From a virus, in the IMG/VR virus record IMGVR_UViG_3300027906_000039, positions 1 to 43,441 of that record: a stretch of 43,441 nucleotides of DNA. One strand, given 5' to 3'. Every line of letters starts with the position of its first letter. Positions within the stretch are counted from its first letter, which is position 1. This document shows positions 4,016 to 14,506 of the stretch, one piece after another. A program made the position numbers and the translations under genes. The notes under the pieces are model-generated. The model saw only the letters and a program-made list of their open reading frames with translations, was not told the origin of the DNA and ran no database searches.

Positions 4016-4444
4016 ATGGCCTATTCTAAGCAGGTCGTTGAAAGATTCGAATCTGTTCTAGCAAACCCAGAAAAACACGCAGTTGGGAGATTCGATCCGA
4101 AAGACCCTATGGTGGCAACAGGATTAGCTGGTGCCCCAGCATGTGGTGATGTTATGAAACTAGATTTAAAGCTAGATGATAACGATACTATATTAGATGT
4201 CAAATTTAAAACTTACGGATGTGGTTCAGCAATTGCCTCATCTACAACATTTGTTGAAATGCTTAAAGGTAGAACTTTAGAAGAAGCTAAACTCATTAAA
4301 GATAAAGAGATAGCTAAAATCTTAGAATTACCTCCTATAAAATTACATTGTTCTGTATTAGCTGAAGAAACAATCAAACACGCAATTGAAGATTGGGAAA
4401 AGAAAACAGCTCATAGAAGGCACAATCATGTTAGAGTTAACTGA
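4016..4444 (+). CDS. iscU: IscU-type Fe-S cluster scaffold protein
   Basis: IscU assembles [2Fe-2S] clusters from sulfur delivered by a cysteine desulfurase and passes them on through the HscA/HscB chaperones. The 142-residue product aligns along its full length with bacterial IscU: Cys43 and Asp45 in GAPACGDVMK, Cys69 in TYGCGSAIASS, and His111-Cys112 in LHCSVLAE. The LPPIK segment (105-109) matches the HscA recognition motif LPPVK. All ligands are intact, so the protein should be functional with host IscS. A 9-residue insertion is seen near the N-terminus and a His/Arg-rich tail at the C-terminus. It overlaps the IscA-like gene by 17 bases, making a coupled pair. Confidence 0.93.
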   Translation: MAYSKQVVERFESVLANPEKHAVGRFDPKDPMVATGLAGAPACGDVMKLDLKLDDNDTILDVKFKTYGCGSAIASSTTFVEMLKGRTLEEAKLIKDKEIAKILELPPIKLHCSVLAEETIKHAIEDWEKKTAHRRHNHVRVN

Positions 4445-4745
4445 TAGTGCTATTCAGCAACTTTTAATTAAAACAGAAGAAAATGGTAATGATACCATTC
4501 GAATAGGTATTACCGGTGGAGGTTGTGCTGGTTATGAATACGTATTCGATTTTGCTCAAGAAGTACACGAAGATGATAACATATTAGACTTTGGTAAGTT
4601 TATGATTGTTATTGATCCAACATCAGTACCTTATCTAGAAGGTGCAACACTCGATTACGTAACAGAGGGTATTAACTCCCAGTTCAAATTTGCCAATCCA
4701 AATGTCCAAATGGCATGTGGTTGTGGCGTTTCTATCCAATTCTAA
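4428..4745 (+). CDS. A-type Fe-S carrier (IscA/ErpA/HesB family)
   Basis: A-type carriers receive Fe-S clusters from the scaffold and deliver them to target proteins. From ATG 4428 the product has 105 residues, typical of the family; an in-frame ATG 14 codons earlier lies deep in iscU and would add residues not seen in the family. The three conserved cysteines are present: Cys33 in GGGCAGYEY, and Cys97 and Cys99 in ACGCGVSIQF. The FANPN motif before the last pair is also typical. HesB-like genes are known in marine T4-like phages; pairing with an IscU scaffold is less usual in my knowledge. Translation is probably coupled to iscU by the 17-base overlap. Confidence 0.92.
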   Translation: MLELTDSAIQQLLIKTEENGNDTIRIGITGGGCAGYEYVFDFAQEVHEDDNILDFGKFMIVIDPTSVPYLEGATLDYVTEGINSQFKFANPNVQMACGCGVSIQF

Positions 4746-4757
4746 CCCCAATTTTAT

Positions 4758-4765
4758 TATAAATA
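4758..4765 (+). promoter_or_regulatory. T4-type late promoter (TATAAATA), leaderless geometry
   Basis: Exact TATAAATA followed by 5 bases (GAAGT) and then the ATG at 4771. T4 late transcription starts at the sixth base after the box, so the transcript should begin at the A of the start codon. No Shine-Dalgarno sequence is present. It is the promoter nearest upstream of the curli/cyclase operon, and I see no terminator until 11566. Confidence 0.75.
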
Positions 4766-4770
4766 GAAGT

Positions 4771-5064
4771 ATGGAAATATTTCAATTGATTGCAGAGGTC
4801 GGAGCTCCTATTGCTGGAGCATTAGTAATGGGTTATTTTATCTTTATAATACTCAAGCAAATGATGAGCGGTCTGATAGATCAAGTGAAAACATTAACCA
4901 TGTTTACTAAAAGTTTAGAAACTAGAGTAGGAACAATGAATAATGATATGATAAAGATAGATTTACTAGTGAGTAGTGCGTTAGATTTAACCCCGCCAAT
5001 TGATAGAGTAGCCAGAGCAGAAAACTTTGTTGAAGACGGGAAGATAGACGCTAGAAGAGATTAA
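4771..5064 (+). CDS. Single-pass membrane protein A of a tandem pair (holin-like candidate)
   Basis: The 97-residue product begins MEIFQLIAEVGAPIAGALVM; the ATG at 4771 is preferred over in-frame upstream codons because it sits 5 nt after a late promoter and starts the hydrophobic segment properly. One membrane helix covers about residues 8-31, followed by a long amphipathic or coiled-coil cytoplasmic or periplasmic tail. It aligns with the next gene (both have QL..., G.P, A..MGYFI), so the two arose by duplication. Size and topology resemble YvrJ-like or holin-like phage proteins. A holin role, or anchoring for the adjacent secretion genes, is inference. Confidence 0.6.
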   Translation: MEIFQLIAEVGAPIAGALVMGYFIFIILKQMMSGLIDQVKTLTMFTKSLETRVGTMNNDMIKIDLLVSSALDLTPPIDRVARAENFVEDGKIDARRD

Positions 5065-5375
5065 TGTCTGAGTTAGGACAATTAGTTTCAGATTTTGGAT
5101 TCCCAGTGGTTCTTGCTGTAGGCATGGGTTACTTTATATATTATGTGTGGACTTTTATTACTAATCAAATAGAACCACAACTTGAAAAAATGCACTTTCA
5201 ATTGATTAGATTGATTGATCAAATAAGGATGCTTGATCAGGATATGATCAGATTACAGCAAAAGGTTAATGTTGTAATTGAATATAGAGAGCGCCAAAAA
5301 GAGCTGGAAGATGCTAAAGAAAAGGAAGCTCTCGCGGAGAAAGAAGAAAATGAAGATAAGAAACCTAAGAGATAA
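5064..5375 (+). CDS. Single-pass membrane protein B of a tandem pair (holin-like candidate)
   Basis: The ATG overlaps the previous stop (TAATG). The 103-residue product has one membrane helix at about residues 12-34 (FPVVLAVGMGYFIYYVWTFI), a coiled coil from about 40 to 80, and a strongly charged Glu/Lys tail. It is a paralogue of the gene just upstream, differing mostly in the tail. The csgF-like gene starts within its last 26 bases, so production of this protein and of the secretion proteins is probably coupled. Possible two-component holin/antiholin pair; unproven. Confidence 0.6.
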   Translation: MSELGQLVSDFGFPVVLAVGMGYFIYYVWTFITNQIEPQLEKMHFQLIRLIDQIRMLDQDMIRLQQKVNVVIEYRERQKELEDAKEKEALAEKEENEDKKPKR

Positions 5376-5916
5376 ATTAGAATTAACTACTCTAATAGGT
5401 ATTTTTCTATTATCAGTATTGAGTTTAACACCAGCAGCAAATGCAGATGAACTAGTTCATGAATTTAAAAATCCATCATTTAGTGGTATTGGTGCTTCAG
5501 CTCATTATTTAACTGTTGAAAACCAAGAAAAATCTAGAAGAGATGCTATAAGAGATGATATTGAAGCTGCTTTAAAACAGGCAGAAAGAGATGCTGAAAA
5601 TACAACCTTAGCTAAATTTATGCGTAACCTCGAGAGTAGGATATATGCGCAATTAAGTAAACAGCTAGTTGAGAATTTATTTAGAACATGTTCAGCTGAA
5701 GCTATAGCAGCTGGAACATGTACTGAAACAACATTTGGTAGTTTTGTATTAGAAGGTAATACAATTACCTATCAAAAAACCATATGTGATGCAAGTTTAT
5801 GGGCTTGTACTCAAGGCGATGATGTTATTGTTATGACAATTGTGGCTGAAGATGGAACTGAAACACAAATAGTAATACCAATCGGAGCCGGAACAGCTGG
5901 ATCAGGTGATGGTTAA
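5350..5916 (+). CDS. csgF: CsgF-like curli assembly factor
   Basis: CsgF is exported through the CsgG pore, caps it, and couples secretion to surface nucleation of curli. From ATG 5350 the 188-residue product has a signal peptide (hydrophobic core about 14-29, cleavage after ANA) and then the CsgF signature FKNPSFSG (bacterial FRNPNFGG). A C-terminal beta region (GNTITYQKTICD, VIVMTIVAEDG, TQIVIPIG) matches the end of CsgF, though four cysteines (FRTCSA, GTCTE, TICDA, WACTQ) are additional and may form disulfides. Length exceeds E. coli CsgF (about 138). The upstream in-frame ATG at 5278 would put a basic extension before the signal peptide and is unlikely. It overlaps csgG. Confidence 0.82.
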   Translation: MKIRNLRDKLELTTLIGIFLLSVLSLTPAANADELVHEFKNPSFSGIGASAHYLTVENQEKSRRDAIRDDIEAALKQAERDAENTTLAKFMRNLESRIYAQLSKQLVENLFRTCSAEAIAAGTCTETTFGSFVLEGNTITYQKTICDASLWACTQGDDVIVMTIVAEDGTETQIVIPIGAGTAGSGDG

Positions 5917-6877
5917 GAAACTTCTAGGACTTACCCTGCTTATAGGGTTAATACAGGGATGTGCATCTATTGTTCCTCCTGGAGGATTAGATGCAACAAA
6001 TTGTGTAGATAAATTTGCATGTGTAGAAGAACCAGAAGTAGTTCAAATGCCTACACATAAAGAATTAAAGAATTTACCCTCACCAGAAAAACCAGTTATT
6101 GTAGCCGTATACAAATATATGGATAAGACTGGTCAAAGAAAGCAAAAAGGAAATGCAGCTATGTTTAGTACCGCCGTTTCTCAAGGTGGTGAAACAATGC
6201 TGATCGATGCATTGAAAAGTGCTGGTGATGGTACGTGGTTTAGAGTAGTAGAAAGAGTAGGATTAGATCATCTAACAAGAGAACGTCAAATCGTACGAAC
6301 TACTAGAGAGCAGTATAATACAGAGGGGAAAGATGATACAGGTCTTGCCCCACTACTATTTGCTGGAATTATTCTTGAAGGAGGTATCATAGGATTTGAT
6401 ACTAATATTGAGACAGGAGGTGTGGGAGCTAGAACTCTAGGTATAGGTTATTCGCAACAATACCGAAGAGATATAGTTACTGTTTCCCTCCGAGCTGTTA
6501 GCACATTGACAGGTGAAATTTTATTAAATGTGCAAGCGTCAAAAACCATTTTGTCGATCGCTGATGGTTATGACGTATTTAAGTTCGTTGATATGGACAC
6601 TCAACTTGTAGAAATAGAAGATGGGATGACAGAGAACGAATCGGTGACAAGGTCGCTAAGATCAACAATCGAAGCGGCAGTGTTGGAATTAATATACCAG
6701 GGGGATGAACGAGGTTTTTGGGAAATTAATTGGCCAGTAGAAAAGATAATAGAAAGCAAAGTTGAAGAAATTATGGACGAAGCTGAAATTATCTATAGTG
6801 TACCGGTCGAGGATAATCCTGATGATTTACCTATTGAAGTTCCTACTCCTGATAATTTAGAGGAAATAAGAGGATGA
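5909..6877 (+). CDS. csgG: CsgG-like curli secretion channel lipoprotein
   Basis: CsgG forms a nonameric outer-membrane channel that exports unfolded curli subunits. The 322-residue product from ATG 5909 (GTG 5906 is alternative) has a lipoprotein signal ending in LIQGC (Cys18). It then follows E. coli CsgG closely: KNLPSPEKPVIVAVYKYMD, FSTAVSQGG, GGIIGFDTNIETGGVGAR, STLTGEILLNVQASKTILS and the C-terminal RGFWEI. In the constriction loop the E. coli Phe56 is retained (MFSTAV), whereas the positions of Tyr51 and Asn55 appear to be Gly and Met, which would change pore gating. An acidic, Pro-rich tail of about 40 residues extends past the bacterial protein. It overlaps csgF and the curlin-like gene. 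Confidence 0.93.
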   Translation: MVKKLLGLTLLIGLIQGCASIVPPGGLDATNCVDKFACVEEPEVVQMPTHKELKNLPSPEKPVIVAVYKYMDKTGQRKQKGNAAMFSTAVSQGGETMLIDALKSAGDGTWFRVVERVGLDHLTRERQIVRTTREQYNTEGKDDTGLAPLLFAGIILEGGIIGFDTNIETGGVGARTLGIGYSQQYRRDIVTVSLRAVSTLTGEILLNVQASKTILSIADGYDVFKFVDMDTQLVEIEDGMTENESVTRSLRSTIEAAVLELIYQGDERGFWEINWPVEKIIESKVEEIMDEAEIIYSVPVEDNPDDLPIEVPTPDNLEEIRG

Positions 6878-7602
6878 ATATTTTAAAAAGATATATCGCA
6901 TTCAGTCTTTTATTATGCCCGTTAGTTGTGTTCGGTGGAGCAAACGATAATGAGATCGTGCTTGACCAATCCGGTGATACACTTAAATTATACGTAGACC
7001 AAATTGGTTACGGTAATAAGATTTGTGGAACTATTTCAAGTGGTGCTTGTGCAACACCTTGGACTTTAACCGGTAATACCGTCACAATGGATATAGATAT
7101 GATCGGCAACTTAAACCAAGTCTTTGGTCCAACTCTATTTGATAGTACTGACGTTGATTTAAAAATGACAGGTAATTCAAATATATGGGATTGGAACGTA
7201 GGTTACGGTGGTAGTGCTGATTCATCTGTTCTAGATGTAGAGATGACCGGATCTTCAAATACTTTCGATATAGACTGGGGTTATTCAGCTTCAGCCGAAA
7301 GATTGGATTTTGATTTAGATATAACCGGTGGATCTAATGTTTGGAATATCGATATAAACTCTGACGATGTTACTTGGAACGTAGATGTTATAGGAAGTTC
7401 AAATAACTTCTTAACTGCACAATCTGACGGTGGTGATCACGAGATTACTATGGAATGGATTGGAAGTAACGGAGACATTGATATTATTCAAAGTAGCGGT
7501 ACATGCCCAACAGGTATAACTGGTTGCTTTGGAGTAATCGATGCGGATTTTGATTCAGAAAATGCAATTGTCGACATTAAGCAAAAAGATACTGGCGACT
7601 AG
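6874..7602 (+). CDS. Curlin-like secreted repeat protein 1
   Basis: This is a probable substrate of the CsgG channel. The 242-residue product has a signal peptide (residues 1 to about 21) and a repetitive body. About six repeats of 20-24 residues (roughly 69-197) share the pattern M/I-x-G-x-SN-x-(W/F)-x-(I/V)-D, for example KMTGNSNIWDWN, EMTGSSNTFDID and DVIGSSNNFLTA. The N-terminal stretch (LDQSG ... VDQIGYGNKI) is closer to true curlin repeats with Gln and Asn at the ladder positions. Repeats are rich in Asp, Asn, Gly and Ser and predicted to form a beta-solenoid or amyloid. It overlaps csgG by 4 bases. Minor or major fibre subunit cannot be distinguished. Confidence 0.75.
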   Translation: MNILKRYIAFSLLLCPLVVFGGANDNEIVLDQSGDTLKLYVDQIGYGNKICGTISSGACATPWTLTGNTVTMDIDMIGNLNQVFGPTLFDSTDVDLKMTGNSNIWDWNVGYGGSADSSVLDVEMTGSSNTFDIDWGYSASAERLDFDLDITGGSNVWNIDINSDDVTWNVDVIGSSNNFLTAQSDGGDHEITMEWIGSNGDIDIIQSSGTCPTGITGCFGVIDADFDSENAIVDIKQKDTGD

Positions 7603-8704
7603 TCTAGTATTTAGTTCTATTGCTTTTGCCGACGATATTGGCGATATAACAGAACACAAGGGCAGTGGTGGAATCACTCGCGAAGGTGAGAGTTTCATCA
7701 CTGAACTTGGATTAGGTGTTCAGCAACTGGATGCTATTGAAACGGCCAAAGGTCGTATTAAATTAACTTTTAGAGATGATACGGTATTAAGATTAGTAGA
7801 ACATACAGAAGTTGTACTAACTAAATATTATTTCGATCCAAATAATACTCAGAACAATTCTCTTGCTATGAATTTTGTATCTGGGACAGCAAGATTTGCT
7901 ACAGGTGGATTAGGCTTAGTACCGAAAGAAAATATTGTTATAACAACCCCAACAGCTACTATTGCAGTTAGGGGAACAGATTTTACTACTACTGTGGATG
8001 AATTAGGTCGAAGTTTAGTTATACTTCTTCCAGAAACAGAATGTACTATAGATGGAGATTGCTCTCCTTCTGGTGCAATCACAGTAACAAATGAAGGTGG
8101 TACGGTATCGTTAACCGAAGCATACCAAGCAACAATGGTATCAAGCTTTGATAAAATACCTACACAACCAGTTACATTAGATAATATAAATTTAAATATG
8201 ATAGACAATATGTTTATCGTAGCACCACCTCAAGAAATTAAAGAGGCGGTGGAAGAAGAAAGTTCTACTTCAGATACTTCTACTTCTTTATTAGATTTTA
8301 CTGAACTCGATCAGGATTTATTAAAAGAAGAATGGGAAGAAGAAGATCTAGAGTATACTGAACTTGATATGGATCTATTAGATGTAGATTTTTTACAAGA
8401 TGTTTTAGTTACAATTGAAGAAGTAAATATATTAAAACGTAGTACAGCAGCAGCTGAACGTGGTTCAGGTTCTGCAAATATAATCGGTACCTCATTAGGT
8501 TTCGATAAAGATACACAATATAATACCATTATAGATCAAGGTATGGGTCAAATATGGTTTTATAGAGAAGTAAATGGTATTATCAGTGTAAGAATACCTA
8601 TAGATAGTAATACAACATTGAGGAGCGAAAATGAAGGTAAAGAAAACCTTATTACTGTTGGCGATGGTCAGTCTATCGTTATCATCATACGTCAAGGCGG
8701 GTGA
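7562..8704 (+). CDS. FecR-domain secreted protein
   Basis: FecR-type domains are periplasmic or surface beta domains, often found next to signalling proteins. From ATG 7562 (alternative ATG 7541) the 380-residue product has a signal peptide ending AFA and then a FecR domain at about 53-190, with QLDAIETAKGRIKLTF, TVLRLVE, FVSGTARFATG and ITTPTATIAVRGTDF. Its middle section (about 230-300) is a very acidic Asp/Glu/Leu repeat (LDFTELDQDLL, YTELDMDLLDVDFL). The C-terminus returns to beta structure. Its start lies inside the curlin-like gene, and its last 74 bases are also the start of the next curlin-like gene. FecR proteins are known as genomic neighbours of CHASE2 cyclases, as here. Confidence 0.82.
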   Translation: MQLSTLSKKILATSLVFSSIAFADDIGDITEHKGSGGITREGESFITELGLGVQQLDAIETAKGRIKLTFRDDTVLRLVEHTEVVLTKYYFDPNNTQNNSLAMNFVSGTARFATGGLGLVPKENIVITTPTATIAVRGTDFTTTVDELGRSLVILLPETECTIDGDCSPSGAITVTNEGGTVSLTEAYQATMVSSFDKIPTQPVTLDNINLNMIDNMFIVAPPQEIKEAVEEESSTSDTSTSLLDFTELDQDLLKEEWEEEDLEYTELDMDLLDVDFLQDVLVTIEEVNILKRSTAAAERGSGSANIIGTSLGFDKDTQYNTIIDQGMGQIWFYREVNGIISVRIPIDSNTTLRSENEGKENLITVGDGQSIVIIIRQGG

Positions 8705-9443
8705 TGAACATAATCATATTGAAATAGCTCAAGTTGGGTCTTCAGATAATTTCGATCTGGGGATTGAACAAATAGGCTATGAGAATCATATTAGATTTTC
8801 TTTTAGCCACAATAATAATACTGTAAATCTTTTACAACTTGGAAATAAAAACTATATAGGATATACCGATGCATGGGGATCTGGTTATAGTTGGGGTGGA
8901 GATTTAGATGGATTAGATAATGAAATAGATATTCGTCAAAAATGTTCTAAGACCTCTTGCAATGCTAATGATTTTCAATTCCATATCTTGGGTGATGATA
9001 ATACAGTTAAATTTGGGCAAGGATATTCTCTTAATGATAGTACAACCCCAACATGGAGTTATGATGGTAATGAACCAGGTGGAAACTTTGTTAGATTAGA
9101 TATACATGGCGATGATAATACATTTACTGGAAGCCAAAAGATGGATACGAGTACTATATCACATTCTATAACTGCAAATATATACACAGATAATAATGAT
9201 GTATATGTAAGACAGGCACAAAATGGAAACAAAACATTTACTCTTACAATTAGAAATTCAGATGGTAATGATGTATTTGTTAATCAAAGAGATAACGGAG
9301 CTCACACAGCAACGGTATCATTATTAGGATCACAACCAACAGATTTAATGTTACTCCAAAAAGGAAATACTACACAATCATATAGTTTAACTCAGAATTG
9401 TGTAACAGTTGGTGGATGTTCAATTAGCGTAACTCAAGAATAA
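8631..9443 (+). CDS. Curlin-like secreted repeat protein 2
   Basis: The 270-residue product has a signal peptide (MKVKKTLLLLAMVSLSL, cleavage near VKA-GD) and curlin-like repeats: EIAQVGSSDNFDLGIEQIG, NLLQLGNKNYIG, VRQAQNGNKTFTLTI, VNQRDNGAHTATVSLLG and LLQKGNTTQSYSLTQN. Gln and Asn sit at regular ladder positions, closer to bacterial CsgA/CsgB than protein 1. One Cys pair lies at about 105-110 and another at the C-terminus. The first 25 codons overlap the FecR gene in another frame, an unusually long overlap. It ends TAATG into a microprotein. It probably leaves the cell through CsgG, and may nucleate or form surface fibres; this is inferred from context. Confidence 0.78.
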   Translation: MKVKKTLLLLAMVSLSLSSYVKAGDEHNHIEIAQVGSSDNFDLGIEQIGYENHIRFSFSHNNNTVNLLQLGNKNYIGYTDAWGSGYSWGGDLDGLDNEIDIRQKCSKTSCNANDFQFHILGDDNTVKFGQGYSLNDSTTPTWSYDGNEPGGNFVRLDIHGDDNTFTGSQKMDTSTISHSITANIYTDNNDVYVRQAQNGNKTFTLTIRNSDGNDVFVNQRDNGAHTATVSLLGSQPTDLMLLQKGNTTQSYSLTQNCVTVGGCSISVTQE

Positions 9444-9505
9444 TGTTAAGTAAAGAATATTTCGATTATATTGGTTCATGGTTAAGGTGGTATTATAATG
9501 TCTAA
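9443..9505 (+). CDS. Possible 20-residue aromatic microprotein
   Basis: ATG 9443 overlaps the preceding stop as TAATG, and the TAA at 9503-9505 lies just inside the next gene (ATG 9498). The product is 20 residues with unusually many aromatic residues (KEYFDYIGSWLRWYYNV), likely an amphipathic membrane-surface helix. It may be a genuine peptide, or simply a coupling frame that carries ribosomes from the curlin-like gene to the next one. No family is recognised. Confidence 0.35.
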   Translation: MLSKEYFDYIGSWLRWYYNV

Positions 9506-9662
9506 TTGGATTTTTAATAAGCTTGCTCCTTATGCTATAAGATTTAGAGAATGGTCTAAAGGAAAAACCTGGGTTCAAATACCTTTATGGATTTTGATAT
9601 TATGGATGTTAGGTTTTGCAAATCCTTATTGGTGTGTTTATCCTGTTTGCTGGATAGTATGA
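9498..9662 (+). CDS. 54-residue Trp-rich membrane protein before the cyclase
   Basis: ATG 9498 overlaps the microprotein upstream, and its TGA overlaps the cyclase ATG (ATGA, 4 bases), so it is likely coupled to the cyclase. It has a basic N-terminal amphipathic segment (YAIRFREWSKGK) and one hydrophobic helix (IPLWILILWMLGFA, about 28-42), ending in a Cys/Trp/Tyr-rich tail (PYWCVYPVCWIV). Probably a single-pass inner-membrane protein. I do not recognise a family; its position suggests a role with the cyclase or export machinery. Confidence 0.55.
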   Translation: MSNWIFNKLAPYAIRFREWSKGKTWVQIPLWILILWMLGFANPYWCVYPVCWIV

Positions 9663-11545
9663 AATATTTAACTTCAATCGGAGCTTGTTTAGCTTTATTA
9701 ACTTTACTTATCGGTATAAGGGTTATTGATCCAGAACCAGTAGAAAGAGTTAGATTAATCTCTTTCGATTCTAAAATAAATTCCATTCCGGAAACACAAT
9801 CAGATCAATTAGTTTTACTTAATATAGGTGAAAAAGCTTTAGAGGTAAATGGTCAATGGCCGTGGCCGAGACAATACTTTGCCCAAATGATTTCTGATTT
9901 AAGAAATGCAAATGCTGGTATAATTGGTATCACTGTAATGTATCCTGAAGCGGATAGATTTGGTGGTGATGAAGTATTTACATCTTGGGTAAAAGGTAAT
10001 GGTATTGTATTATCTCAGGTTCCTTCCGCGCGAGGGCGCTCGGACGTGGCCCCGTACGTGGGTACGGCCGTGCTCGGGGAAGGTGATCCGTATGATTTTG
10101 CATATGAATATTCTAACTTAGTAACTAATATACCAGCCTTAGAAGAGGTTGCAGAAGGTGTAGGAATGGTAAACAGTACTGTTGAGGTGGATAATTTAGT
10201 TAGGAGAATGCCATTAATAACACAAGTTAATGATCAATTATATCCTTCTTTCCCAATGGAAGTAATAAGGGTATTACAACAAAAGATTTCTTATTCTATG
10301 AAAGTAAATGAATTAGGAATACAAGATTTAATGATACCACCATATGAACCTATTAAAACAGATACAACAGGTTCTATTTGGATAAATTTTTCAAACCAGT
10401 TTGAACAAATTGAGTATTCGGATCCTTTACCCAATCTGCAGGGAAAAACTGTAATTGTTGGTGTGACCGCAGAGGGGATTCAACCCATTCTTTCAACTCC
10501 TGCTGGTCCTGCATATCCTCATCAGATCCAAGCTTCTTCTCTTCAAACAATAATGAATGGTGATTCAATTTCTCGTCCTCTGATAGCTGATATCGTGGAA
10601 ATAGTTCTAGCTGCTCTTCTTGGGTTGGGAATAATTCTAGCTGTTTACTATCTCGATGTTTGGTTAGGTGCGATTGCTTTTGTAGGTTTTGCTGGCGGCG
10701 CCGTGCTCGCCTCGAATTTTGCATGGTCCGGTTCCTTTTTCTTAATCGATTGGACTTGGTCATTAGTAGTATCTATATTAGTTTTTGCCCAAGCATCATT
10801 TAATAACTTTTATGTACAATTTAAATTAAGACAACAGATTAAGAAACAATTTGGAACTTATGTATCACCAGATCTAGTAAAACAATTACAAAAGAATCCA
10901 GGATTATTAAAGTTAGGAGGAGAAAGAAAAGAAATGACTTTCCTCTTTATGGATATATGTGGATTTACTCCAATATCAGAACACTATAAAAATAATGATG
11001 ACCCAGAAGGATTAGTAGATTTAGTTAATGAATTCTTAGATAAAATGACTAAGATCATTCTTAAGAATGGAGGAACTATTGATAAGTATATGGGAGATTG
11101 CATAATGGCTTTTTGGAATGCTCCTTTATTCTGCCCAAACCATGCAGAGTTAGCAGTTAAATCAGCAATAGAAATAGAAGAGGAAATAAATGAACTTAAG
11201 AAGGTATATGAAGAACGTGGGTTACCTGATATTAATGTTGGCACCGGTATTAATACCGGAACTTGTATTGTGGGGAACATGGGTTCTGAAACCAGATTCG
11301 ATTATTCTGTTATTGGGGACGCAGTTAATTTGGCTGCCCGTTTAGAAGCTACTGCGGGAAGAGGAGAATATATTAATAAAAAGACTATTATGTCCAGAGC
11401 TACTATGGAACAATTACCAGCTGGTTACCTCTCCGAGGAGCTAGGAACGATACAAGTTAAAGGTAAAGAAGAGAAAATAAGGATATACTATCCATCTAAG
11501 ATAGATGAATATATGCCAAAAAGTCATATTGATATGAGAAAATAA
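9659..11545 (+). CDS. CHASE2-domain class III adenylate cyclase
   Basis: This membrane receptor should convert ATP to cAMP in response to an extracytoplasmic signal. The 628-residue product has an N-terminal membrane helix (5-22), a periplasmic CHASE2 sensor (about 30-305), three closely spaced helices (about 307-378) and a cytoplasmic class III cyclase domain (about 425-610). Metal-binding Asp432 (FMDICGF) and Asp480 (KYMGDC), adenine-selecting Lys476 and Asp548, and transition-state Asn557 and Arg561 (DAVNLAARLE) are all present, so it should be active on ATP. An in-frame ATG at 9587 would prefix the helix with extra residues inside the upstream gene. The CHASE2 region contains a very GC-rich patch (10027-10080). 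It is the last gene before a terminator. Confidence 0.9.
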   Translation: MKYLTSIGACLALLTLLIGIRVIDPEPVERVRLISFDSKINSIPETQSDQLVLLNIGEKALEVNGQWPWPRQYFAQMISDLRNANAGIIGITVMYPEADRFGGDEVFTSWVKGNGIVLSQVPSARGRSDVAPYVGTAVLGEGDPYDFAYEYSNLVTNIPALEEVAEGVGMVNSTVEVDNLVRRMPLITQVNDQLYPSFPMEVIRVLQQKISYSMKVNELGIQDLMIPPYEPIKTDTTGSIWINFSNQFEQIEYSDPLPNLQGKTVIVGVTAEGIQPILSTPAGPAYPHQIQASSLQTIMNGDSISRPLIADIVEIVLAALLGLGIILAVYYLDVWLGAIAFVGFAGGAVLASNFAWSGSFFLIDWTWSLVVSILVFAQASFNNFYVQFKLRQQIKKQFGTYVSPDLVKQLQKNPGLLKLGGERKEMTFLFMDICGFTPISEHYKNNDDPEGLVDLVNEFLDKMTKIILKNGGTIDKYMGDCIMAFWNAPLFCPNHAELAVKSAIEIEEEINELKKVYEERGLPDINVGTGINTGTCIVGNMGSETRFDYSVIGDAVNLAARLEATAGRGEYINKKTIMSRATMEQLPAGYLSEELGTIQVKGKEEKIRIYYPSKIDEYMPKSHIDMRK

Positions 11546-11565
11546 TCTAACTTTTTTGCATTTAG

Positions 11566-11588
11566 GGGGTTTACAAACCCCTTTTTTT
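11566..11588 (+). terminator. Intrinsic terminator of the curli/cyclase operon
   Basis: A GC-rich stem GGGGTT/AACCCC with a TACA loop is followed by seven T residues, 20 bases after the cyclase stop. The -35 box of the next promoter (11570-11575) lies within the hairpin, so termination and initiation signals are superimposed. Confidence 0.75.
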
Positions 11589-11598
11589 GTGGTATAAT
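11570..11598 (+). promoter_or_regulatory. Sigma70-type promoter, family copy 1
   Basis: TTTACA (11570-11575), 17-base spacer and TATAAT (11593-11598). The spacer ends in GTGG, as in two of the three other copies. It should be read by host RNA polymerase and drives the gene at 11632, which has an AAGGAG ribosome binding site. Confidence 0.8.
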
Positions 11599-11631
11599 GG
11601 TACCCATAAAATAAAATAATAAGGAGAAATT

Positions 11632-11811
11632 ATGGAATTTATCGAACTAGAGCACATCGCGACAAGGATACCTGAGCGTGTGGAAATAGATCCTAAGGTA
11701 ATTAATACCGAGGAAAAAGCATTTAGACATTTAGATAAAGTTATGCCTGAATGGGAATTAGATTTCTTCTTCGAAGGAATAACAAAAGGAGTAAATAATG
11801 GCAGCAATTAA
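11632..11811 (+). CDS. 59-residue hypothetical early protein
   Basis: ATG 11632 is preceded by a strong ribosome binding site (AAGGAG) and a sigma70-type promoter. The product is an acidic 59-residue protein (MEFIELEHIATRIPERVEID, then WELDFFFEGITKG) with no membrane helix or known motif. Early phage proteins of this size often bind host enzymes, but nothing here identifies a target. The last 14 bases overlap the next gene. Confidence 0.65.
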   Translation: MEFIELEHIATRIPERVEIDPKVINTEEKAFRHLDKVMPEWELDFFFEGITKGVNNGSN

Positions 11812-12034
11812 AGTTATGGAAAAACAATCCGATTTAAATAACTCTATTTTAGAGGTATTAGATAAAGTGATTGATAAAGTTAACCAATTAGATGATAAAC
11901 TAGATATGCTAGAAAGCAGAATTAGTGAAGTTAATGGTGATACTTCTGGATTAAGTTCTGAGATAAGTGGTTTAGAAAGCTCGATTTCATCAATAGAATC
12001 CAGTGTAAGTTCAATTGAATCACAAATATCGTAA
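11798..12034 (+). CDS. Small coiled-coil protein
   Basis: The 78-residue product is nearly all coiled coil, with heptads such as VLDKVIDKVNQLDDKLDMLE, followed by a Ser/Ile repeat tail (SGLESSISSIESSVSSIESQ) whose seven-residue units recur about three times. It probably forms a helical bundle. A GGAG site precedes the start at 11788-11791. No family is recognised; function unknown. Confidence 0.65.
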   Translation: MAAIKVMEKQSDLNNSILEVLDKVIDKVNQLDDKLDMLESRISEVNGDTSGLSSEISGLESSISSIESSVSSIESQIS

Positions 12035-12067
12035 CGAAAAGTTCACGAGATTGTGACGAAAAAGGGG

Positions 12068-12096
12068 TTTACAAGTCCCCTAAAATACGGTATAAT
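12068..12096 (+). promoter_or_regulatory. Sigma70-type promoter, family copy 2
   Basis: TTTACA (12068-12073), 17-base spacer, TATAAT (12091-12096). The -35 box lies within an AGGGG...CCCCT inverted repeat that may act as a weak terminator for the upstream gene. It drives the 12129-13448 cluster. Confidence 0.8.
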
Positions 12097-12128
12097 GATC
12101 GTATATATTTAAAAAATAAGGAGTTTAA

Positions 12129-12623
12129 ATGCAAAAACTAGTAATATCAACCCAATACCGCGAGAACTATGCGGCTCATAACGAGGACTATAACCACGGT
12201 GTGGATCAACCACATTGGAAATTTAAAGGTGGTACTACTTACGTAGTTCCTAACTTTAAGGACTTTAATAATGTCCAGGATGTAGTTGCAAAACTTACTG
12301 ATCTTATTACTTACTCTAATCCAGGTTCGGAAGAGTATATCTTAGATTTTGAGATTGTAGAACAATCCGCTAAGGTTTGCGAATCTTGGGAAACACCTAT
12401 CCAAGTTTCACAAGATGGTGACAAATTTGTTGCTCTTAAGGTTATTGATAACCGTGAAGATGGTTGGATGAAATCTGAGATCTTAGAAAAAACTGAGGCT
12501 TGGACTATGATGCCAGAAGGCGAAAGAAAGGGTTATTCAGATTCTTTCTTAATGGAAGATGGAGACATCGTTGAAGGCCCAGCTGGTCTCAAAGAATGGT
12601 TTAATGCTAAGGAGGCAGCGTAA
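12129..12623 (+). CDS. Conserved phage protein, early cluster
   Basis: The 164-residue protein begins MQKLVISTQYRENYAAHN, followed by HWKFKGGTTYVVPNF; the same opening is found in conserved hypothetical proteins of several large phages. It is acidic, soluble, with no membrane helix and one Cys, and no recognisable active site. The start has a GGAG ribosome binding site 9 bases upstream, and it lies first in a promoter-headed cluster of four overlapping genes. Function unknown; early expression is likely. Confidence 0.75.
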   Translation: MQKLVISTQYRENYAAHNEDYNHGVDQPHWKFKGGTTYVVPNFKDFNNVQDVVAKLTDLITYSNPGSEEYILDFEIVEQSAKVCESWETPIQVSQDGDKFVALKVIDNREDGWMKSEILEKTEAWTMMPEGERKGYSDSFLMEDGDIVEGPAGLKEWFNAKEAA

Positions 12624-12886
12624 TGAGAAGTTCACAAAATTATATAATGACTGCACACGCTGAATGTGCAGGTGATATGCTCGAATTAGAGAATATCAGA
12701 AAAGTGGTAAAGATTATGAATAAATCTAATCCTTACAAAAAATTCTATGTTAAATGCCAAGGTCGAGGACCTAGAACTAATCCTTCTATCCTAGATGGAA
12801 GAGGGTTTAGAGGATATGATTCTTTCCTTCCACTTAGACATGCAACCCATATGGATGTATACATTTATGAGAAATATCAATGGTAA
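12623..12886 (+). CDS. Small hypothetical phage protein
   Basis: The 87-residue product starts at an ATG overlapping the previous stop (TAATG) with GGAGGC upstream. It is basic, with a YKKFYVKCQGRGPRTNP block and a Gly/Arg-rich RGFRGYDSFLPLRHA section. Related small proteins occur in large phages without known function. No membrane helix. It is likely co-translated with its neighbours in the early cluster. Confidence 0.65.
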   Translation: MRSSQNYIMTAHAECAGDMLELENIRKVVKIMNKSNPYKKFYVKCQGRGPRTNPSILDGRGFRGYDSFLPLRHATHMDVYIYEKYQW

Positions 12887-13098
12887 ATGGAATTAAACTT
12901 ACTCATATTGCAACAGGTTATCCTGAAGAGATCCATTTAAACACGAAAGAAATGCAATTAGCCTTAGACAATACTAACATTAATAAGTCATGGGAAATGC
13001 TCTGTACGAGCGTATACGTGCGTCTAGGGATAGGTATAGAAGGTAACTATGAGTTAGAAAGCATAGTGGTAAATGGTAAAGAGAGGCCGTTACATTGA
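12880..13098 (+). CDS. Small hypothetical phage protein
   Basis: The 72-residue product starts 7 bases inside the preceding gene. It is predicted to be mixed alpha/beta (GIKLTHIATGYPEEIHL, YVRLGIGIEGNYELESIVV). No motif or family is recognised. The stop overlaps the TTG start of the metallopeptidase-like gene (TTGA), so the two are probably coupled. Confidence 0.6.
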   Translation: MVNGIKLTHIATGYPEEIHLNTKEMQLALDNTNINKSWEMLCTSVYVRLGIGIEGNYELESIVVNGKERPLH

Positions 13099-13448
13099 AT
13101 CTTTTTATAAAAGGTGATATTGATAATAAAGATCTTGTTGAGATTTATATTATCAATGTCTTGAAACATCTTAAAATAGATAGAAGAAAATCAAGTGAAA
13201 TAAAAATTAACTTTAGATCTAAGATGCCTAAGGGATATGGAGATTCAGTTGGTTTATGTGAAGGTGATACTGAGGATTGTATCATCTATATAGCAAAGAA
13301 ACAGACTTTTTATGAACAAATGATTACCCTCGCGCACGAGCTAGTACACGCGAAACAATTTTTAAAAGGGGAGTATCCTTCCGAAATGGAGGCTAAATCC
13401 CAAGAATATGACCTATTAGGACGTTGTTTTCCTTGGGAAATGACATAG
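13095..13448 (+). CDS. Zincin-type metallopeptidase-like protein with TTG start
   Basis: This is a 117-residue protein with the zinc-protease motif HELVH (in LAHELVHAKQ) and a downstream Glu in YPSEMEAKSQEYD that could be the third ligand, as in gluzincin/SprT-like minimal proteases. The start is a TTG overlapping the previous TGA; GAGAGG lies upstream as ribosome binding site, and no in-frame ATG exists near the N-terminus. A small size and lack of signal peptide indicate a cytoplasmic enzyme. Substrate is unknown. Similar HExxH proteins occur in T4-like marine phages. It ends the cluster before the next sigma70-type promoter. Confidence 0.75.
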   Translation: MNLFIKGDIDNKDLVEIYIINVLKHLKIDRRKSSEIKINFRSKMPKGYGDSVGLCEGDTEDCIIYIAKKQTFYEQMITLAHELVHAKQFLKGEYPSEMEAKSQEYDLLGRCFPWEMT

Positions 13449-13495
13449 TATGAGATTTGTATGCCAATTATTTTCAATTATTTGCAAAAAGGGGG

Positions 13496-13524
13496 TTTAC
13501 AAGGGACCAAAAATGTGGTATAAT
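13496..13524 (+). promoter_or_regulatory. Sigma70-type promoter, family copy 3
   Basis: TTTACA (13496-13501), 17-base spacer ending in GTGG, TATAAT (13519-13524). It precedes the gene at 13560, which has a GAGGAG ribosome binding site. The -35 is preceded by a run of five G, as in copy 1. Confidence 0.8.
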
Positions 13525-13559
13525 ACACATGTATTTAATAATATAACTGAGGAGTTAGA

Positions 13560-13901
13560 ATGAATAGATTAGAATTAATCAAAGAAGCAGCCTTAAAAGC
13601 TAAGGCTAAAAAGCTCGGAACATCCGTTGAAGAGCTTAAATTCCAAGAATCAATTAAAGCTTTAGATGAACGTAAAGCTAGAATTAAAGCTGAGCAAAAA
13701 GCTAAAGCTAAAGAAGAGCGTAAAATCGCTAAAGACTTAACTGGTCAAGTTAAAAAAGCTGGACACCTAAAGGCTGGATCTTTAGATCTAAACAGTCCAG
13801 AAAATATGTATTACTCTGAGAAAGAAACCCAAGACTGGTTCGAAGGTTCTTCTTTAATGGATGCATATAATGCTAACCGTTCAGCTGATGGAGATTACTA
13901 A
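13560..13901 (+). CDS. Lys/Ala/Glu-rich helical early protein
   Basis: The 113-residue product is a long charged helix (residues about 5-65, with AALKAKAKKLGTSVEELKF and ARIKAEQKAKAKEERK) followed by an acidic, aromatic tail (YYSEKETQDWFEGSSLMDAY). Charge is strongly basic in the first half, suggesting nucleic-acid contact. It heads a new cluster behind its own promoter. Unknown family. The next gene starts one base after its stop. Confidence 0.65.
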   Translation: MNRLELIKEAALKAKAKKLGTSVEELKFQESIKALDERKARIKAEQKAKAKEERKIAKDLTGQVKKAGHLKAGSLDLNSPENMYYSEKETQDWFEGSSLMDAYNANRSADGDY

Positions 13902-13902
13902 G

Positions 13903-14091
13903 ATGTTCGTAGCTAATTTTTTAACAGGTCCTGGTACTAACCATGACCCAGTAAACGTAAGAGTTTCATTTATAGATTATATTGTTTACCTTATAAGTTC
14001 AAAACGATTTTTACTTAGGATAGGTAAGAAATATAATACAAATTTTTTATCAAACTATTTTTTTGAAGGAGTTAAATATTATGGAAAATAG
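13903..14091 (+). CDS. 62-residue hypothetical protein
   Basis: ATG 13903 is preferred over in-frame ATGs at 13861 and 13870, which lie inside the preceding gene. The N-terminal block FVANFLTGPGTNHDPVNVRV is followed by an Ile/Tyr/Phe-rich section (FIDYIVYLISSK) and a basic C-terminus. It is weakly hydrophobic, not a clear membrane protein. The end overlaps the next gene by 11 bases. The C-terminal half has unusually AT-rich codons and could be degenerate. No family recognised. Confidence 0.45.
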   Translation: MFVANFLTGPGTNHDPVNVRVSFIDYIVYLISSKRFLLRIGKKYNTNFLSNYFFEGVKYYGK

Positions 14092-14506
14092 CATTCAATT
14101 AATTCCTTGTGAAGGCGAAGGGTGTAGTCGTGGAGGCTCTTTACAAGGTTCAATTAAAGCTTCATTCGCTGATCTTAAAGAAATGTTCGGAGAGCCAGCT
14201 TTTGAAGGCAAAGGTGATAACATTACTACTGAGTTTGTTATCGATTATCAATGGTACGATAACAGCGATGATGCTGAGTATGGACAATTTGTTCTTTATG
14301 ATTGGTACTATGGAAGAAATTTTGGTAATGATTATGAAGTTATCGATTGGAATATTGGTGGAAAAGGGTTCAATGATGGCTATGCAGCTATTCTTGCCCA
14401 AAGAATATTTGAGAAAACCGATATTAGATATGGTCATGATGAAGCTTGTTTAGCACATGCTCATTGGCATGATCTAAATGAAATTGAGGAAAAGAATGTC
14501 GCTTAA
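14081..14506 (+). CDS. Conserved phage protein with FGEPAF motif
   Basis: The 141-residue product starts at ATG 14081, with GGAG 10 bases upstream. It contains [29 protein letters not shown] and [13 protein letters not shown] followed by WNIGGKG. This pattern (FGEP, then a Trp-containing strand, YDWK/Y and IGG) occurs in conserved hypothetical proteins of many large phages. The His-rich end ([13 protein letters not shown]) could bind metal. Function unknown. It overlaps the next gene by 11 bases. Confidence 0.7.

Follow-up and report, generated by a model that had tools for sequence, protein, structure and literature searches.

A 43,441-nucleotide marine fragment of viral DNA (IMG/VR virus record IMGVR_UViG_3300027906_000039), analysed whole and called the window below, carries a string of genes for two small membrane proteins, CsgF, CsgG, a curlin, a FecR-domain protein, a second curlin, two microproteins and a CHASE2 class III adenylate cyclase (AC), all on the + strand between positions 4771 and 11545. 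The fragment is T4-like, with genes for gp32, a helicase loader and the baseplate. Conserved and mostly overlapping, with a late promoter in front, the gene string is shared by phages of several types and by two bacterial chromosomes. It can be read as a portable late phage cassette that would export an amyloid-like fibre of the curlin type late in infection, with FecR and the cyclase sensing the state of the fibre or of the envelope; we would put the chances of this reading at about even. A complete system for secretion and signalling is a rare cargo for a phage. This one moves as a single block among unlike phages and into chromosomes of Caulobacteraceae, with selection keeping every gene, and its long-unclear function becomes testable in a bacterium that might be cultivated, beyond SAR11 infection alone.

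The combination of genes is already published and is not new. CsgF and CsgG were first reported in pelagimyophages in 2020 (PMC7029224). Wittmers et al. (2022; PMC9599517) then described the order histidine kinase (HK)-CsgF-CsgG-CsgA/B-FecR-CsgA/B-adenylate cyclase in podo- and myophages and its movement between viral families. The cluster in phage Melnitz has been discussed as a possible regulator of lysis (PMC9004378). The original prediction, made from the letters of the window alone, had also mentioned curli-related clusters of unclear function in metagenomic pelagimyophages. The same gene string is carried by the cultured phages HTVC008M (KC465899) and Melnitz (MZ577097), and full-text searches of one literature library found no later paper on the cluster. 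What is added here are the apparent chromosomal captures nested within phages, a correction of the kinase label, evidence on the late promoter, an HK97-type carrier and the tail of the FecR protein.

Gene order and the late promoter

The gene content and the one-strand overlapping layout proposed from the sequence were confirmed, the content with Pfam, PHROG and PDB profile matches. Most junctions overlap (TAATG, ATGA), by a few to about 70 bases. An exact match to the T4-type late promoter octamer, TATAAATA, lies at 4758–4765 on the + strand. Its place is conserved in relatives: it is found at most 70 nucleotides 5′ of the first membrane-protein gene (mpA) in 85 of 154 distinct loci, and rarely or never before the inner genes (mpB 0/177, csgF 11/197, csgG 0/199, fecR 0/199, AC 5/183). 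Because the octamer sits almost exclusively before the first gene, the set is, on this placement, one late unit, as had been predicted. Enrichment of the octamer in the window was tried as a signal and discarded, with 11 copies found against 10.9 expected by chance; it is the position that is conserved. A terminator-like hairpin 3′ of the cyclase gene (11564–11583, + strand) was likewise rejected as a conserved boundary, being kept in 6 of 168 relatives.

Co-occurrence of the genes points the same way. Among IMG/VR loci with enough flank, those reached with a distant CsgG profile had FecR in 32/32 cases and the cyclase in 30/32, and those reached with a FecR profile had csgG in 30/30 and the cyclase in 28/30. 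These rates describe the reachable family and not all phages, since profile searches list the closest matches first and the loci were not dereplicated. FecR and the CHASE2 cyclase are fixed partners of csgG in these loci, and the random association that the original prediction had named as a challenge to a single system was not found.

A reading of the two halves, curli export and FecR-CHASE2 signalling, as independent modules that happen to be neighbours would agree with the FecR matches in 25 of 82 scanned bacterial loci, 22 of which are without csgG. This explanation appears very improbable to us in view of the order csgF-csgG-cur-FecR-(cur)-AC, which is fixed across T4-like, HK97-type and other phages and bacteria, of the curlin genes that often stand on both sides of FecR, and of the similar grouping in the FecR, CsgG and AC trees. 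The FecR proteins of the module also form a full-length family of their own with a curlin-like tail, which is described below.

Export proteins, FecR and the cyclase

The assignment of CsgG, the predicted outer-membrane export pore (5906–6877, PF03783 6e-48), is secure, with structures of E. coli CsgG matched at 4e-48 (PDB 4uv3). The CsgF-like gene at 5350–5916 has a match to PF10614 (2.9e-11) that exceeds the cut-off. The two curlin-like proteins match PF07012 weakly: the first (6874–7602) with 18.3 bits, slightly below the cut-off of 20.7, and the second (8631–9443), also below it, with 13.3 bits only. These assignments are backed by ladders of the GxxN motif, five copies in curlin 1 (0/2000 shuffles) and four in curlin 2 (1/2000 shuffles), and by profile matches of curlin 1 to a curlin-repeat chain (8c50, 5e-4) and to CsgA (8enq, 5e-3) among solved structures. 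AlphaFold predicts an all-beta fold for curlin 1 (pLDDT 85), and a Foldseek search with this model against the PDB gave no significant fold match. Where a locus has room for it, csgG is nearly always accompanied by one curlin gene or more. The curli-type export system with curlins of its own, which had been proposed from the window, thus holds as a prediction.

The gene for the FecR-domain protein (PF04773 2e-11) extends to 8704 from a TTG at 7568 or an ATG at 7541, so that the coordinate 7568 is approximate. A structure model built from 52 sequences (pLDDT 80) consists of an N-terminal domain joined by an acidic helical linker to a beta domain at the C-terminus. In a Foldseek search the N-terminal domain matched the cell-surface-signalling domain of PupR/FecR (6ovk/4m0h) with probability 1.00 and an E value of about 1e-3, and a short stretch of the model resembles the surface-anchoring domain of an antifreeze adhesin (5ix9). 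The sole short helix, of the export type (residues 4–14), precedes a domain that starts at residue 25, and the cytoplasmic anti-sigma region and the separate trans-membrane helix of classical FecR are absent from the model. The module FecR is apparently exported.

The C-terminus of this protein carries a motif, hydrophobic-x-hydrophobic-x-Gln, at most six residues from the end in 178 of 180 distinct FecR tails; at positions in the body of the protein its frequency is 3.9%. The same tail motif is present in 216 of 325 curlins. It is rare or absent at the tails of the other proteins of the module (cyclase 0/167, CsgG 0/193, membrane pair 0/311, CsgF 6/174) and is found in 0 of 23 bacterial FecRs near CHASE2 cyclases. 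The tail could therefore be a curlin-like strand able to pair with curlin subunits, and it offers a concrete hypothesis for the coupling of fibre export to cyclic AMP (cAMP).

It has also been proposed that the pore serves the infected cell for the uptake of nutrients such as cobalamin and siderophores, FecR being an iron-linked regulator (PMC9599517). CsgG forms a wide pore, a FecR domain is present and IscU and IscA genes lie directly upstream in the window, all of which would suit import. The export-type helix as the only helix of its kind in FecR, with no cytoplasmic anti-sigma region, and the regular presence of curlin genes with csgG do not, and of 138 loci only 30 have an IscU gene upstream and only 41 an IscA gene. 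We judge import distinctly improbable.

The cyclase gene (9659–11545; PF05226 2e-37, PF00211 4e-20) encodes the CHASE2 domain and the full set of catalytic residues expected from the original prediction. The metal-binding Asp432 and Asp480, Lys476 for adenine, and the transition-state residues Asn557 and Arg561 do not vary across 102 phage cyclases, in which position 550 is occupied by Ser, except for one with Thr. In the Melnitz cyclase, which is outside this set, the alignment places Ser at the position of Asn557. Of the proteins with a solved structure, CyaB (3r5g) matches the cyclase of the window best in sequence, and the enzyme is predicted to be active.

Two further features of the cyclase genes were observed. 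An in-frame patch of about 90 nucleotides (10007–10097) reaches 77% GC in a genome of 34% GC, and most of its codons are GC-ending. About 10 of the 102 phage cyclases, whose proteins are otherwise only 54–65% identical to that of the window, have near-identical DNA in the corresponding position. The patch was considered as an RNA element and rejected, with fold z-scores near 0, no Rfam family and a presence inside cyclase genes only; it may have come from a GC-rich donor as a short recombination tract. In seven module-bearing phages (L359, L366, L368, L369, L370, L387 and L397) the cyclase lies on a very long separate branch, and in these it has perhaps been replaced or is fast-evolving.

Copies in Caulobacteraceae and the proposed function

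A scan of species genomes with the phage cyclase profile gave 80 loci, one of which, L163 in a metagenome-assembled genome of the Caulobacteraceae, has csgF, csgG, two curlins, FecR and the cyclase in order. It is flanked by a glycosyltransferase gene on one side and by S9-peptidase and TonB-receptor genes on the other. A second genome of the same genus (G422, locus L258) has the same block of 5,975 bp with 87% DNA identity and with dissimilar flanks, a phosphoesterase gene upstream and genes for TetR, an amidohydrolase and an acyl-CoA dehydrogenase downstream. A misbinned phage contig as the source of L163 was ruled out by its bacterial flanks and by this second genome with different ones. 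The leading membrane pair is absent from both genomes. The two blocks are a correction to PMC9599517, in which bacterial type VIII secretion system (T8SS) operons are said to have neither FecR nor AC. dN/dS between the two copies is 0.04 for csgG, 0.08 for fecR and for AC, 0.14 for csgF and 0.22–0.35 for the curlins. Purifying selection maintains all six genes, with FecR and the cyclase under nearly as strong a constraint as the pore. If the captures were separate, part of this divergence arose in phages.

Trees place these copies among those of phages. A first cyclase tree with few phages put Caulobacteraceae outside them, and wider phage sampling showed this to be a sampling effect. The wider scans brought in phages 49–67% identical to the Caulobacteraceae copy in CsgG and FecR. 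With the cyclase tree rooted on 11 bacterial cyclases, the Caulobacteraceae pair lies four supported nodes inside the phages (97/93, 100/99, 100/100, 99/95), and a phage-only grouping appears in 0% of 200 bootstrap trees. A CsgG tree rooted on other bacteria agrees, and the unrooted FecR tree has the same grouping. Because the bacterial copies nest inside the phage clade, the simplest reading the trees suggest is capture of the cassette from phages.

Descent of the Caulobacteraceae copies from a bacterial donor is the alternative. An ultimately alphaproteobacterial origin has been inferred (PMC9599517), and bacteria have csgF-csgG-curlin sets and FecR-CHASE2 pairs separately from each other. 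Four other alphaproteobacterial csgF-csgG loci are without FecR and cyclase. The nested position of the pair in the rooted cyclase tree, the lack of any phage-only grouping in the bootstraps and the agreement of CsgG stand against such a donor. So does rarity. A module-type FecR is present in one genome in 385 Alphaproteobacteria and in two in 299 of the family, and no further full-length member was found in these sets or in 398 genomes of the phylum; one more, partial match, in genome G086, has no csgG next to it. A bacterial donor seems to us quite unlikely.

Two of the phage loci that group close to the Caulobacteraceae copy show that these carriers are genuine phages. L356, with terminases, portal, protease-capsid and endolysin genes, is from an HK97-type phage; its cassette (6259–14432) stands between the endolysin and the large terminase subunit, in a phage type beyond that of the T4-like window. 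L351 has phage-type ribonucleotide reductase and dCMP deaminase genes.

If the cassette is a fibre-export device with a sensor, Sec would export the curlins, FecR, CsgF and CsgG, and nine-mers of CsgG gated by CsgF would bring the curlins out to the cell surface for assembly into a fibre. FecR would associate with curlin subunits or the fibre at the pore by means of its C-terminal curlin-like strand. The CHASE2 domain would read the state of the fibre or of FecR from the periplasm, and the membrane cyclase would set cAMP in the infected cell. The fibre would alter the surface of that cell, by shielding or aggregation; superinfection exclusion, put forward in the original prediction, is a further candidate role. 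The original prediction had suggested that CHASE2 beside FecR could report on fibre export; of this the FecR end gains support, in that its tail makes it plausibly fibre-facing. As a whole, the earlier interpretation is partly supported.

Several observations weigh against fibre export coupled to cAMP. The repeats in the curlins are degenerate, and several lack the Gln ladder. No CsgE was found among the proteins of the operon, to which the scan was limited. The FecR tail may be merely structural, since the model places it as the final strand of the C-terminal domain. Infected OM43 cells did not clump with Melnitz under laboratory conditions (PMC9004378). No protein with a cyclic-nucleotide-binding domain (PF00027) is encoded in the complete genomes of HTVC008M and Melnitz or in 14 further phage records with the module, and any target of cAMP therefore belongs to the host or to another family; the two Caulobacteraceae genomes have six and seven PF00027 matches.

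The principal competing explanation is that CsgG and CsgF have been repurposed as a gated pore or pinholin timing lysis, with curlins, FecR and cyclase feeding the decision, as discussed for Melnitz (PMC9004378). Late expression, judged from the placement of the octamer, agrees with it, as do the holin-like membrane pair in front, the lysozyme gene upstream in 29 of 138 relatives and the endolysin gene that adjoins the module in L356. However, Melnitz, thought to be without curlins, has two annotated curlin-repeat genes, and CsgG, an outer-membrane pore, is unable alone to open the inner membrane. The bacterial copies count against reading the pore as purely lytic: in two genomes that have no membrane pair, in cells that are not undergoing lysis, purifying selection keeps the six genes together, and a role limited to lysis is therefore unlikely for the six. 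Timing of lysis by the module is made less likely by these copies, and overall we consider it unlikely. Their persistence is easier to reconcile with a fibre that benefits the cell, or the infected cell, than with a lysis-only role. A bolder version of the fibre-export reading, which we put forward tentatively, is that phages evolved a self-sensing amyloid-export device out of CsgG/CsgF, curlins, a FecR protein with a curlin strand and a CHASE2 cyclase that reads it, and that bacteria took the device over from phages, gaining a finished surface-fibre organelle whose second-messenger output is built in.

The membrane pair, flanking features and known systems

The first two genes encode the paralogous membrane proteins mpA (97 aa, 4771–5064, phrog_18771 E 8.8e-25) and mpB (103 aa, 5064–5375, phrog_18771 E 3.2e-27), the second with a weak match to holin family phrog_4898 (0.003). 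All of 43 diverse members of the pair that were scanned, 79–117 aa long, belong to phrog_18771, and HisKA and HATPase domains are not among the matches listed for them (25 families). Weak matches to a holin family (16/43) and to YvrJ (13/43) are a hint that the pair is holin-like; the match of the member in L351 is at 2e-6. The published 'histidine kinases' are thus, by their domain content, membrane proteins of about 100 residues without a kinase domain, an equation that rests on position in the cluster. In INPHARED the pair proteins are confined to module-carrying records, and in some phages the pair is on the opposite strand. It is possibly a separable, phage-only and holin-like element.

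Between curlin 2 and the cyclase, a putative TAATG-coupled ORF (open reading frame) of 20 aa (9443–9505) was read from the sequence, followed by a 54-aa membrane microprotein from the ORF list (9498–9662). The latter appears to lie outside the core of the operon because just nine matching ORFs were found in a close set of relatives. Directly upstream of the operon are the iron-sulphur assembly genes for IscU (4016–4444, NifU_N 3e-37) and IscA (4437–4745, 1e-17). Downstream, three nearly identical promoter-like sites, TTTACA-17-TATAAT with 11/12 matches each (11570–11598, 12068–12096 and 13496–13524), are perhaps early or middle promoters of the phage. In three relatives a GC-rich tRNA-Ala(TGC) gene lies 3–5 kb upstream of csgG (L009 3063–3138, L012 5027–5102, L014 5033–5108), and in L009 and L012 one frame is open across it into the flanks.

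Compared with the pelagiphage T8SS cluster, the window agrees in gene content and order, FecR, the second curlin and the adenylate cyclase included, and differs in that its genes at the HK position encode small membrane proteins without kinase domains. The FecR/PupR anti-sigma proteins (6ovk, 4m0h) share the fold of the N-terminal beta domain with the module FecR, which, in contrast, is without their cytoplasmic anti-sigma domain and separate trans-membrane helix and is apparently exported. Bacterial pairs also place FecR beside a CHASE2 class III cyclase; unlike the ordinary ones (0/23), the module FecR, as a separate full-length family, has a curlin-like C-terminus. The curli genes of E. coli, csgBAC and csgDEFG, resemble the operon in the CsgG pore, CsgF and secreted repeat proteins of the curlin type, whereas the phage operon contains neither CsgE nor CsgD, has degenerate curlins, adds FecR and the cyclase, and is polycistronic with overlapping genes.

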